Part shown: positions 104 to 7,313 of the stretch, piece by piece | How the letters are laid out: each line of letters begins with the position of its first letter | Numbering within the stretch: the first letter of the stretch is position 1 | Source: Candidatus Hydrogenedens sp. | GTDB taxonomy: Bacteria; Hydrogenedentota; Hydrogenedentia; Hydrogenedentales; Hydrogenedentaceae | Direction of reading: 5' to 3' | DNA: 10,000 nucleotides | Assembly (NCBI GenBank): GCA_020216745.1 | Contig: JAIWNQ010000154.1 | Location: forward strand, 1 to 10,000 | The notes under the pieces: model-generated | The model's input: the letters and a program-made list of their open reading frames with translations, nothing else | The model's database searches: none | What the model was told of the DNA's origin: nothing | Made by a program: the position numbers and the translations under genes

Positions 104-1936
104 TTAAAGTGATGTCCCTAACCATTCTTCAACTATTTTTTTATAAGATGATATCTCACCATCAGACTCTCTGTATTTTGTAACATTATTCCTCTCTGCA
201 ACTTCAAAAAATCTTTTTGCTCGGGATATCATTGTTGGGTCTGAATTTTTAGTCTTAAAATCCATATCCCGTTTCCGTGCACGTTCCATAATCGCATAGT
301 CAACGCTTAATCGTGCTACCTTTACTCGCTCAAGGACTTCGGGTTTCTCGCTGACAGCTTTTTCTGCCTTGTCAAATAATACTTCTGCTTGTTGTAATAA
401 CTCATTACTTAAATGTTTTCCATTGGGACCGACCCAGATATTCATATGTGTTCCACGATTATGTATTGGTTTATGTATCAATTGGAGGTATTCCATAATA
501 TACGGTGAAGCATCTTCATAAAAGGCATCCACAAATTCACTAATAGCTACCTTTTCATCATAGGAAGGGTCCCATAAAAGTTTTGCATTTAAGTATGCAC
601 TCAATTCATTAAATTCACCATGCAAAGTTGTATATGTATCCTGCTCAAAAATACCTGTAACATTATGGTTTACAAAAAATCGGATATTAGGTCCTCGAAC
701 TTCAAGGTTTGGGAATGGGACAAGATAATGACTGAAAGATGTTACATAATCCCACACCCATAGGCGATTACAAATTTTGGACCAACCTTCTACATCCTTT
801 ACAAAATCGCGATTTTGTTTTGACACACAACTATCAAGAGGGTGAGCAAAACAACATTCGATACTGCACAAACGGATTACAACATTTGGTTCTGGACGCA
901 TATTTTTAGGAGGCTTTCTCGACCACTGATATGCTAATGTGTCTATAATTTTATCAGGGAACTCATCACGGACAGCACGTGCAACACTGTTTACGAGATA
1001 TAACAAAGGTCCCATTTGTGATTCTTCTGCATTTGCCATTGCTGAACATTTATCGCACTGGCAAAAGTTATACCAGTCGTTTTGAGAAACCGAAAAAACT
1101 TTGGCTTCTGGATGTTCTCTCATCCATCTTTTAACTTCTTCTGTAACTAAACGAATGACTTCCTCATTTGTGCAACAAAGCTGTGTCCGCTCTTTAACTC
1201 GTTTCCCTTCTACCATAGAATAATATTCAGGATGCGAATCGAAGTATTTATCGGGGGGTAGAAGTGAATCAAACGTATGCACAAACCCATAATAAGTAAT
1301 TTTCCCTCCATGTTTTTCTTCAAGCCGACATGTATTCCCGTTAGCACGATTTCGTGCACACCAATCCCCATCAATAAATCCGTCCATCGTGAATGGCTCA
1401 CGATATTCTAAAGGTGGTATATAAATCTCATTTAACAAGGGTAAAGCTATCGTTTGCATCTTCGGGATTCGACTTACATTTGTAGCAAACCAACGACAAC
1501 CAAGATGGTCTTCAAGTAAACCATAAACACCATATAATGTCCCACGAGGTTCACCACCAGCAATGATAATTTTATCCTCCATCACAATAATGTTGTATCC
1601 TTCCTCACCTAAATCATCCCAACTGACATTAATATTCAAATCATTTAATCGTTTATTTTTTCCAAGTATAATCTCCTTTCCTTTCATAGGCTCCGCATCA
1701 GTTATAATGGGAAGTTCAGCACCACTCATCTCTTTAATAAATCGTTGCAACTCTTCACTTGCATATTTTACGGATGGAATACAATTTTCGGGAATTACAA
1801 TAACACATTGTGGTTCACCATTATGAGCAATCATAAAAAATTTTTCCATTACTGACGGTGCTTTCTTAGCACATCCAAAACCAAACAAAAGAAAGGAAAC
1901 TCCAAGAATTATCAATATCTGCTTTAGTATTTGCAT
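104..1936 (-). CDS. DUF4838 domain-containing lipoprotein, GH-like (610 aa)
   Basis: A probable surface or periplasmic protein that binds or hydrolyses glycans; no member-specific substrate can be read. The N-terminus is a lipoprotein-type signal: K5, a hydrophobic run to about residue 20, then FGFGC with the candidate lipidated Cys at 22. The -3/-2 residues (G, F) are atypical for a lipobox. Residues about 45-160 resemble the alpha-glucuronidase N-terminal fold seen in this family (SVKYASEELQRFIKEMSG; LYGVYGLLEDHLGCRWF). Residues about 210-490 match the DUF4838 TIM-barrel-like core, with SQNDWYNFCQCDKC at 284-297 and a Cys cluster C292/C294/C297. The C-terminal 120 residues are helical. The ATG at 1936 is supported by an AAGGAG ribosome binding site (plus-strand 1945-1950, 8 nt away). 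The gene is divergent from the 1166-aa gene. Family assignment is confident; enzymatic activity is inferred only. Confidence 0.9.
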   Translation of the reverse strand: MQILKQILIILGVSFLLFGFGCAKKAPSVMEKFFMIAHNGEPQCVIVIPENCIPSVKYASEELQRFIKEMSGAELPIITDAEPMKGKEIILGKNKRLNDLNINVSWDDLGEEGYNIIVMEDKIIIAGGEPRGTLYGVYGLLEDHLGCRWFATNVSRIPKMQTIALPLLNEIYIPPLEYREPFTMDGFIDGDWCARNRANGNTCRLEEKHGGKITYYGFVHTFDSLLPPDKYFDSHPEYYSMVEGKRVKERTQLCCTNEEVIRLVTEEVKRWMREHPEAKVFSVSQNDWYNFCQCDKCSAMANAEESQMGPLLYLVNSVARAVRDEFPDKIIDTLAYQWSRKPPKNMRPEPNVVIRLCSIECCFAHPLDSCVSKQNRDFVKDVEGWSKICNRLWVWDYVTSFSHYLVPFPNLEVRGPNIRFFVNHNVTGIFEQDTYTTLHGEFNELSAYLNAKLLWDPSYDEKVAISEFVDAFYEDASPYIMEYLQLIHKPIHNRGTHMNIWVGPNGKHLSNELLQQAEVLFDKAEKAVSEKPEVLERVKVARLSVDYAIMERARKRDMDFKTKNSDPTMISRAKRFFEVAERNNVTKYRESDGEISSYKKIVEEWLGTSL

Positions 1937-5567: not shown

Positions 5568-5597
5568 TTGCAAAGGAATCATTTCATGGAATAGAAT
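5568..5597 (+). promoter_or_regulatory. Candidate promoter for the riboswitch transcript
   Basis: TTGCAA (5568-5573, four of six matches to the -35 consensus) is followed after 18 nt by TAGAAT (5592-5597, five of six to the -10 consensus). Transcription would start near 5604, about 47 nt before the aptamer's first helix. The position agrees with a separate transcript for the downstream gene, after the stop codon at 5537. Confidence 0.4.
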
Positions 5598-5650: not shown

Positions 5651-5789
5651 GCTAATGTTAAGGGAAGTGCGGTGAAAATCCGTCGCAGACGCGCTGCTGT
5701 AACCGGGGACGAAAGTCACAAAAAGCCACTGCATTTGCGGGAAGGCGTGACAAGTAGACAGAGCCGGAAGCCAGAAGACCTACATTAGC
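5651..5789 (+). promoter_or_regulatory. Cobalamin (B12) riboswitch aptamer
   Basis: The conserved cobalamin-riboswitch landmarks occur in the right order. The closing helix P1 is a perfect 8-bp pairing of GCTAATGT (5651-5658) with ACATTAGC (5782-5789). The core has GGTGAAAATCC at 5671-5681, GCTGCTGTAACCGGGGACGA starting at 5693, GCCACTG at 5725-5731 paired with CGGGAAGGC ending at 5746, and the B12 box AGCCAGAAGACC at 5769-5780. The box departs from the usual AGCCAGGAGACC at one base. Known members bind adenosylcobalamin or related corrinoids and switch the downstream gene off when the ligand is abundant. The helix set, including the large peripheral arm, looks like the adenosylcobalamin class, but ligand preference is inferred. 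Confidence 0.95.
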
Positions 5790-5805
5790 AGGAATAATTT
5801 ACTGT

Positions 5806-5917
5806 AACAACTCGCGGAAAGGTTGTTGCGGGAATGGCATTCTCCTTCTGTGAAAGCCAACCTGCCTACTTTTCCCACCTTAAATGAAACATAACAAAAA
5901 CAATTTAACAGAAGGAG
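5806..5917 (+). promoter_or_regulatory. Riboswitch expression platform with anti-Shine-Dalgarno segment
   Basis: CTCCTTCTGT (5842-5851) is perfectly complementary over 10 nt to ACAGAAGGAG (5908-5917), the ribosome binding site of the gene starting at 5926. This is direct evidence for a translational off-switch. Competing helices are visible: AACAAC (5806-5811) with GTTGTT (5822-5827), and AGGTTG (5820-5825) with CAACCT (5858-5863). TGGC (5835-5838) with GCCA (5856-5859) would put the anti-SD in a hairpin loop. No T-run terminator lies between the aptamer and the start codon, which also points to translational control. Confidence 0.75.
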
Positions 5918-5925
5918 TAAAGTTT

Positions 5926-7251
5926 ATGCGTATTAAGCGTTATGTAGTGGTATTTATTTCTTTTTATATGTTTGTATTTACGCTGGACGGGGTTTCAGAA
6001 AGAATCATACCCCTTGAAAATTTACCTCAACCCGCTTCTGGCTCTTATTTTGTAACATCAGCCCCACTAACTGATGGAACATTCCTAATTTGGAATGGCA
6101 ATGAAATCTTTAAGCAAACGACACCTGCAAATGACAATTTCAGTTTAATCACCTCAGGTTATATTGGAGACCCAGGTTTTATAGCCATCTCACCAGATGG
6201 GAAAAAGGCAATTTTAGGACAAGGGTATTTAGGTAATCTCTACTTACTTGATTTAGACAATCCACAGGATTTCACACCAAGTTCAATTGTCGGCAATATT
6301 AGCCACTATTATGGTATTTTCCTTACAGAGGATTTGCTCCTACTTGATATAACAAAACTAGACTTTTCAGGAAGTGAAATACATGTTTTATCCGTGTTTA
6401 CTAAAAATGTTGTTGACACAAAATTGATAGTCTCCAAACCACAACATCCTAATAAAGAAATGGTTATTGATAAGCCACCGTATGCATATTCTGCAACTCT
6501 TGCCATCGATAACGACTGGGTCTATATTATGGATGCTAATACCCGCGAATTAAGAAAATTCAACATACAGAACATTGTCAACGCTTATGAAGGTAATTAC
6601 ACACTTGACTGGGAAACAGACGGAACATTAATTGGAAATACAGGAATGTATTTCACAGGTGGTGTATCGGGTGTAACAAATGATGGATATTTAATAATAG
6701 GTGGTTCAGCAGGTTTCATGCTACCTGGAGGGATTCAGGAGGTAAATCCTACAACAGGGGAGATAATTAAGATTTGGGATCCTGCAAATAATCAGGGCTA
6801 TTACTCTGCATTCTACAATTCATTCTCAGATACAATCCTAACAATTGTCAACAACAATGGATATTTAGTACTCAGAAACGAACAGGAGGAATGTCCTGAC
6901 TGTATTCCCAAGAGAAAATCGTTCTACCGTACAGGGGAAGATATATGCCTTGACATTTTTGGTGAAAATCTACCACCAAATACGACATTTACATGGACTA
7001 AAGAAGGGGAGAGTCTGGACACAAATCCACGAGTATACGGTATTCACTGTCGGCATCTATTAATATACAATGCCCAAGTCGAAGATAGTGGAACTTACAT
7101 CTGTTCCTACAACAGTGAGAAGAAAATCTTCAAAATCAAGGTTAACGTAACCGACCAACAATTATCTATTAAGAACAATTACTTATTGTTTACCATTTTT
7201 ATCTTCCTTGTTCTTACAGCAGTATCAAAAATAATCAGGGTGATAAACTAA
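5926..7251 (+). CDS. B12-riboswitch-controlled surface protein: beta-propeller-like plus Ig-like domain, C-terminal membrane anchor (441 aa)
   Basis: Probably an extracytoplasmic, membrane-anchored binding protein, possibly for corrinoids. Residues 1-24 form a signal peptide (MRIKRY, then a hydrophobic run to about 20). Residues about 27-317 carry repeated beta-strand blocks typical of propeller blades (FIAISPDGKKAILG; DNDWVYIMDANTRELRKFNI; GGIQEVNPTTGEIIKIW). A CPDC motif lies at 323-326. Residues about 330-410 are Ig-like: C341, W357, and DSGTYIC at 387-393 ending in C393, so a C341-C393 disulfide is expected. Residues about 418-434 are a hydrophobic segment with the short tail KIIRVIN, a C-terminal anchor. 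The start at 5926 is chosen over an in-frame ATG at 5884 because GAAGGAG (5911-5917) lies 8 nt before it and is the target of the anti-SD sequence; 5884 has no ribosome binding site. The gene stands alone. Fold assignment is by pattern, not by search; the corrinoid-binding role is inferred from the riboswitch. Confidence 0.85.
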   Translation: MRIKRYVVVFISFYMFVFTLDGVSERIIPLENLPQPASGSYFVTSAPLTDGTFLIWNGNEIFKQTTPANDNFSLITSGYIGDPGFIAISPDGKKAILGQGYLGNLYLLDLDNPQDFTPSSIVGNISHYYGIFLTEDLLLLDITKLDFSGSEIHVLSVFTKNVVDTKLIVSKPQHPNKEMVIDKPPYAYSATLAIDNDWVYIMDANTRELRKFNIQNIVNAYEGNYTLDWETDGTLIGNTGMYFTGGVSGVTNDGYLIIGGSAGFMLPGGIQEVNPTTGEIIKIWDPANNQGYYSAFYNSFSDTILTIVNNNGYLVLRNEQEECPDCIPKRKSFYRTGEDICLDIFGENLPPNTTFTWTKEGESLDTNPRVYGIHCRHLLIYNAQVEDSGTYICSYNSEKKIFKIKVNVTDQQLSIKNNYLLFTIFIFLVLTAVSKIIRVIN

Positions 7252-7272: not shown

Positions 7273-7313
7273 AAGGAAGGAGAAAGTTTTCTTTCTTCTT
7301 CCTTATTTTTTTT
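7273..7313 (+). terminator. Strong Rho-independent terminator of the riboswitch-controlled gene
   Basis: AAGGAAGGAGAAAG (7273-7286) pairs with CTTTCTTCTTCCTT (7291-7304) over 14 bp with one G-U pair around a TTTT loop. One A and then eight T residues (7306-7313) follow. It begins 21 nt after the stop codon at 7251. Confidence 0.9.

Follow-up and report, generated by a model that had tools for sequence, protein, structure and literature searches.

The window, the whole stretch of 10,000 nucleotides analysed here, belongs to a Candidatus Hydrogenedens draft genome (86% complete) and carries a full-length cobalamin riboswitch aptamer (93.7 bits against an RF00174 gathering score of 31.5) upstream of a gene for a 441-aa propeller-Ig protein (Table 1). 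Homologues, by the names of the organisms they come from, also point to Candidatus Hydrogenedens / Hydrogenedentota. The original prediction, that a riboswitch precedes a gene encoding a signal peptide, a propeller, an Ig-like domain and a C-terminal helix, is confirmed by the aptamer score, the predicted model of the protein and Pfam.

Table 1. Features of the window, with the co-regulated pseudopilin (on a separate contig, L059) in the last line.
Feature	Position	Strand	Basis
DUF4838 protein, N-terminal domain of glycosyl-hydrolase-67/20 type	104-1936	-	
ORF of 1166 aa	2037-5537		no Pfam match over cut-off
Cobalamin riboswitch aptamer, RF00174	5638-5801	+	cmscan 93.7 bits, E 8.1e-23, full model
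Expression platform	5802-5925	+	anti-Shine-Dalgarno arm CTCCTTCTGT (5842-5851) able to pair with ACAGAAGGAG (5908-5917)
Propeller-Ig protein, 441 aa	5926-7251	+	ORF, Shine-Dalgarno sequence, length equal to database protein P0001
Putative N-terminal signal peptide, about residues 1-20	5926-5985	+	by eye; helix 3-16 in predicted model
Predicted six-bladed beta-propeller, residues 23-320 (family alignment A1)	5992-6885	+	predicted model, fold search
Ig-like domain, about residues 326-408	6901-7149	+	Pfam ig, Ig_3, Ig_2, I-set
C-terminal hydrophobic helix, residues 418-440	7177-7245	+	DSSP helix in model; family tails
Intrinsic-terminator-like hairpin	7273-7304	+	14-pair stem, then ATTTTTTTTA
DUF1559 pseudopilin	L059:5136-5993		prepilin N-terminal methylation motif PF07963 (29 bits) and PF07596 (26.2 bits), each above its cut-off

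The gene most likely starts at 5926, 8 nt past a strong Shine-Dalgarno sequence, which is also the start implied by the residue numbers of the original prediction; an alternative start lies upstream at 5884 (455-aa frame). The first cysteine is residue 323 of 441 (337 in the 455-aa frame), and thus the protein has no lipobox. The C-terminal helix may serve as a membrane anchor or as a sorting signal. Because of the terminator-like hairpin 3' of it, the gene looks monocistronic (two terminator-like sites were found in the whole stretch, with 1.3 expected), and a promoter-like site at 5568-5597 does not stand out from chance. The 1166-aa ORF ends 100 bp before the riboswitch and was not found at the 16 propeller loci examined.

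Translational control by the riboswitch is likely. The 10-bp CTCCTTCTGT/ACAGAAGGAG helix is present in the 151-nt leader fold, and the leader energy of the region as a whole is ordinary (z -0.59). In the four members of the genus, the Shine-Dalgarno zone can pair over 10-13 bp with the segment just past the aptamer; in 190-nt minimum-energy folds, this helix occurs in one of the four leaders (G002) and is absent for the window leader. As a control, the four leaders were shuffled 500 times each, and the longest helix with the Shine-Dalgarno zone beat most shuffles in all four members: with G-U pairs allowed, the observed length was reached by 8 (G000), 14 (G003), 0 (G002) and 23 (G001) of 500 shuffles, and with Watson-Crick pairs only, by 2, 3, 54 and 5, respectively. 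We hold the anti-Shine-Dalgarno helix of the window leader with moderate confidence. By analogy with known cobalamin riboswitches, control would be in the OFF direction.

The propeller family and its riboswitch linkage

The propeller is predicted to be six-bladed (mean pLDDT 88), with about 24 strands in residues 23-320 of the model, and its best fold alignments are to Pizza6 and NHL domains, which we take to be six-bladed propellers. Model and fold search thus agree on a propeller fold, as the original prediction had proposed to test. The propeller half had no significant match in Pfam or NCBIfam among the proteins scanned, and the best 60 matches listed for the window protein against PDB sequences include Ig-type chains. 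In precomputed database annotation, PF22854 is assigned to 10 of 66 relatives, none of them propeller-only; it was not reported when one of the ten (P0010) was scanned here. Many relatives have the propeller and the C-terminal tail without an Ig domain, which makes the propeller the constant part of the family. Two ORFs (L039:4034-5839, and one on L051; genomes G009 and G034) contain two window-type propellers in tandem.

A propeller match was found in 31 of 68 genomes of the phylum and at 34 loci (37 match rows, three of them second copies that were counted with their locus); 37 of the 68 genomes are without a match. Searched against genome contigs, profile A1 recovered 13 loci, on contigs titled Hydrogenedentota, Hydrogenedentes or "uncultured bacterium" except for one of the 13 titled Nitrospiraceae (OTbin.67, contig L215), which is probably a mislabelled bin.

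Of the 34 propeller loci, 30 have a cobalamin riboswitch on the same strand, 125-277 bp upstream, versus none within 5 kb upstream of 43 Ig-only control hits (Fisher p 2e-17, only a guide as the species are related). The association of homologues with cobalamin riboswitches, on which the original prediction depended, is therefore borne out. Two of the four loci without a riboswitch are near a contig edge (G014:C159 and G030:C465), and two are weak relatives (G044, E 4e-17; G050, E 1e-9) with no riboswitch within 700 bp upstream. The neighbouring gene alaS was present at 3 of the 16 loci examined, all three in the genus, which indicates that the riboswitch linkage outlives other linkage.

The cobalamin regulon across the phylum

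A survey of 60 genomes identified 92 cobalamin riboswitches, under stricter filters that may miss weak ones, and 88 of these lead to five families: the window propeller, a propeller-Ig protein of family f10, BtuH-like proteins, a pseudopilin and BtuF-like proteins. The first gene that could be recognised is the window propeller behind 26 of the 92, BtuH-like behind 25, BtuH and pseudopilin in a single ORF behind 5, the f10 propeller behind 14, the pseudopilin behind 12 (plus one 1.6 kb distal, G016:C19), and BtuF-like behind 5, in five genomes; this tally is descriptive, since ORFs behind these very riboswitches supplied the profiles for BtuH, pseudopilin, f10 and BtuF, and the linkage control above (30/34 versus 0/43) is independent of it. 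Four of the 12 pseudopilin assignments are partial or weak (G015:C18, G048 twice, G036:C348). The four riboswitches without a recognised gene all run off the contig within 377 bp. Tandem pairs of riboswitches occur at G048:C11:52302-52814, preceding a divergent pseudopilin-like gene, and at G062:C373:2296-2915. Six genomes had no riboswitch match in the survey (G006, G024, G050, G052, G056, and G058), and three of these (G024, G052, and G056) have a match to a TonB-dependent-receptor barrel.

The window propeller is very probably a member of this B12 regulon. The original prediction had cast it as a stand-alone capture factor, and this did not hold: in 7 of the 26 propeller loci the next gene after the propeller is BtuH-like, and the window protein's own genome has an unlinked btuFDC-like operon and one other cobalamin riboswitch, the second of two in all, which drives a BtuH-domain protein followed by a DUF1559-type pseudopilin.

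The BtuH-like partner (L059:5986-8094) has 703 aa, with the BtuH domain within the first ~265 residues and a C-terminal helix recognised by eye. As a single sequence it matches the PDB at 4e-11, and the family profile A2 (hmmsearch) matches 8blw_B (8.6e-20) and 7biz_A (4e-18), each over two stretches; from the available portion of PMC10404256, these are BtuG1, of which A2 matches the H-domain, and BtuH2, respectively. The polar B12 contacts of BtuH2 given in the accessible part of PMC8941943 are Tyr510, Trp511, Trp577, His476, Asn399, and Gln333. Of these, Asn399 and Tyr510 align to the invariant N107 and Y182 of the BtuH-like proteins (numbering offset 100, hand-counted), Trp511 and Trp577 are not conserved, and His476 and Gln333 are outside the aligned stretches. 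The partner also matches the NCBIfam LIC_13355 family lipoprotein model (E 5.6e-9; 35.6 bits, cut-off 120), and on this sequence similarity the LIC_13355 family may share the BtuH fold.

The regulon pseudopilin is the best conserved member, with 18 of 20 genomes carrying an orthologue (56-90% identity), in most cases a single one. Against the model for the H-X9-DG C-terminal motif (TIGR04294) it scores 17.4 bits, below the cut-off of 19. Pseudopilin matches in the 20 genomes number 5-87 per genome, and the other matches listed mainly cover the N-terminus. Of the 20 orthologue rows (the G001 orthologue, split over two contigs, counts as two), 15 are behind a cobalamin riboswitch, versus 0 of the 81 paralogues checked among those listed; thus, one particular pseudopilin belongs to the B12 regulon. 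Among the five rows without a riboswitch, four start within 3 kb of the contig start, and G016:C9 is unexplained. The regulon pseudopilin belongs to the expanded DUF1559 (PF07596) family, and differs from its DUF1559 paralogues in being mostly a single orthologue and in being tied to cobalamin riboswitches.

The BtuH and pseudopilin frames overlap by 11 bp in the own genome, and are a single ORF in six genomes of five families, one of them behind a propeller (L152:2661-5339, L163:574-3327, L172:2123-5377, L131:767-3838, L140:1959-4958, and L043:8864-11173). The prepilin motif of these frames is in mid-protein, and a prepilin peptidase could split the product. Of the five riboswitch-linked BtuF-like proteins, the one checked against Pfam (G014) has PF01497, and a FecCD match lies 1.9 kb behind its riboswitch.

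In family f10, the riboswitch slot holds another protein with a propeller, an Ig domain and a C-terminal helix (L167:1905-3305 and P0187-P0226; pLDDT 90.2), apparently unrelated to the window propeller. Homology between the two was not found in two profile tests, in which only the C-terminal tails aligned (probability 34 and 44).

Probable corrinoid capture and possible passage into the cell

None of 60 genomes gave a match to CbiC, a marker of corrin-ring synthesis, yet B12-binding domains are present in 20 of 20 examined (in the own genome within a 1211-aa frame of MetH size, presumably MetH); corrinoid is therefore needed but probably not made in the Hydrogenedentota. The btuFDC-like operon of the own genome has PF01497, FecCD and, by eye, an ATPase (the BtuF model is below its cut-off), and its contig had no RF00174 match. 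To our knowledge, in the Gram-negative bacteria studied B12 crosses the outer membrane via a TonB-dependent receptor. Neither Plug nor barrel was matched in the four genus genomes (drafts, the own one 86% complete); in the phylum, Plug was found in 3 of 20 genomes and the barrel in 18 of 60 (15 over cut-off). Secretins are present in 20 of 20 genomes, with 4-9 matches each. Without a receptor, a molecule of the size of B12 needs another outer-membrane path, and the co-regulated pseudopilin together with the ubiquitous secretins points to a pseudopilus-linked outer-membrane step.

The original prediction was that the window protein may do a job like that of BtuG, the Bacteroides surface lipoprotein whose gene, in the available text of PMC10404256, likewise has a cobalamin riboswitch, belongs to a B12 regulon and encodes an exported beta-propeller. 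This prediction was supported in part: the predicted propeller fold, the riboswitch linkage (30/34) and a regulon with BtuH-domain and BtuF-like proteins agree with it, but the family is without a sequence match to BtuG1 (profile A1 gave 0 matches at E<=1 against PDB chain sequences including 8blw_B), and no BtuB-type receptor was found in the four genus genomes. BtuG2 has seven blades according to the same text of PMC10404256, and six are predicted for the window propeller; BtuG has an N-terminal lipid cysteine, whereas the window protein has none and has instead an Ig domain and a C-terminal helix; and BtuG is the lid on the TonB-dependent transporter BtuB. The absence of BtuG among the best 50 Foldseek/VIA-align matches listed is no evidence that the folds differ. 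The window protein thus does not share four features of BtuG: the number of blades (predicted), homology in sequence, the lipid anchor and the BtuB partner. In how it is regulated, in fold class and in the genes that accompany it, it works like BtuG, but it is not a BtuG.

In the PMC10404256 excerpt, BtuG1 combines a propeller with a BtuH domain; the propeller and BtuH genes described here share their regulation and in some cases are neighbours. The BtuH domain (BtuH2-B12 structure 7BIZ; PMC8941943, in part) is present in the partner and not in the window protein. In gut Bacteroidetes, as stated in that portion of PMC8941943, btuB is mostly in an operon with BtuH, whereas here a pseudopilin gene lies behind the BtuH-like gene. 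The BtuJ/DUF4465 proteins are also riboswitch-linked, exported B12-binding proteins over several clades, and have a jelly-roll with a conserved NTPAY motif in place of a propeller (PMC13398666, available sections); Pfam DUF4465 had no match in the proteins scanned.

We infer that the window protein probably captures corrinoid outside the cytoplasm, as part of a B12-scavenging regulon and in an envelope that lacks BtuB; direct corrinoid binding by its propeller is also probable on balance. Counting against this reading are the receptor barrels in 18 of 60 genomes, the riboswitches in many of the 37 genomes that have no match to this propeller, the two weak relatives with no riboswitch nearby, the missing sequence link to BtuG, the BtuH2 contacts Trp511 and Trp577 that are not conserved, and the 190-nt folds. 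Surface location is plausible, and the helix could equally hold the protein at the periplasmic side of the inner membrane.

An unlikely alternative is that the propeller-Ig protein is a scaffold with no corrinoid binding of its own, which docks the BtuH-like protein or the pseudopilin and leaves binding to BtuH. Propellers and Ig domains often mediate protein-protein contacts, f10 has an unrelated propeller-Ig protein in the same slot, and at 7 of 26 loci the propeller is immediately followed by a BtuH-like gene; moreover, of the seven genomes where all riboswitches lead first to a propeller, six have a BtuH-like gene behind it in that locus, and a propeller without BtuH is thus rare. Against this, the propeller loci of the genus and of family f9 have a riboswitch of their own and lie on another contig than the BtuH riboswitch, so that the propeller is expressed on its own. 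It is improbable that the window protein is an extracytoplasmic corrinoid-handling enzyme, such as a lactonase-like propeller remodelling cobamides before uptake: cobalamin riboswitches can control salvage genes, and the aligned solved folds include lactonases (for the f10 propeller, Drp35 and DFPase), but at this level six-bladed propellers resemble one another, and a fold in common does not reveal function. That the riboswitch is upstream by chance of an ordinary Ig-bearing surface adhesin is scarcely credible, and already contradicted: same-type Ig domains do occur in many other proteins of these genomes (the 43 Ig-only hits), but linkage is 30/34 versus 0/43 (Fisher p 2e-17, the loci not being fully independent) and 88 of the 92 riboswitches fall in five families.

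Under the capture reading, low intracellular cobalamin would lead the riboswitch to leave the Shine-Dalgarno sequence free, so that the propeller-Ig protein is made. It would be exported by its signal peptide, kept in the envelope by its C-terminal helix, and act in parallel with the BtuH-domain protein of the second riboswitch. The dedicated DUF1559-type pseudopilin would act at the outer-membrane step, and captured corrinoid would pass to an ABC transporter of the BtuF-BtuDC type. The conjectural parts of this scheme are B12 binding by the propeller, exposure at the surface, control of the OFF type, the role of the pseudopilin and hand-over to BtuF. The pseudopilin could instead help to export BtuH or the propeller to the surface.

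A more tentative proposal, which we regard as possible but doubtful, is that corrinoid import in the Hydrogenedentota is TonB-independent and pseudopilus-based, with capture by propeller and BtuH proteins and a DUF1559 pseudopilin carrying the corrinoid through a secretin to BtuF. As a possible precedent, by analogy and in kind only, pili-like fibres of Planctomycetes bind gold-labelled dextran, some of it apparently internalised (PMC5394234, available portion). If the proposal were true, the many other DUF1559 pseudopilins would each serve particular substrates within one general machinery for uptake.

Beyond the window gene itself, the larger result is a B12 regulon with a dedicated pseudopilin and, in the genus, no detectable BtuB. 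Hydrogenedentes, Hydrogenedens and Hydrogenedentota had no mention in the top-ranked literature matches, and "cobalamin riboswitch" and "pseudopilin" occurred together in one of the papers matched, on Klebsiella. The list of candidate corrinoid binders grows by two propeller families. In this phylum, whose members are apparent corrinoid auxotrophs and where no receptor barrel was matched in 42 of 60 genomes, the genes under cobalamin riboswitches form an unfamiliar set: propellers that are new, BtuH domains and a single pseudopilin with strong conservation. This makes testable how such envelopes admit B12 and, because the likely substrate of this pseudopilin is readable from its switch, what the expanded DUF1559 pseudopilins do.
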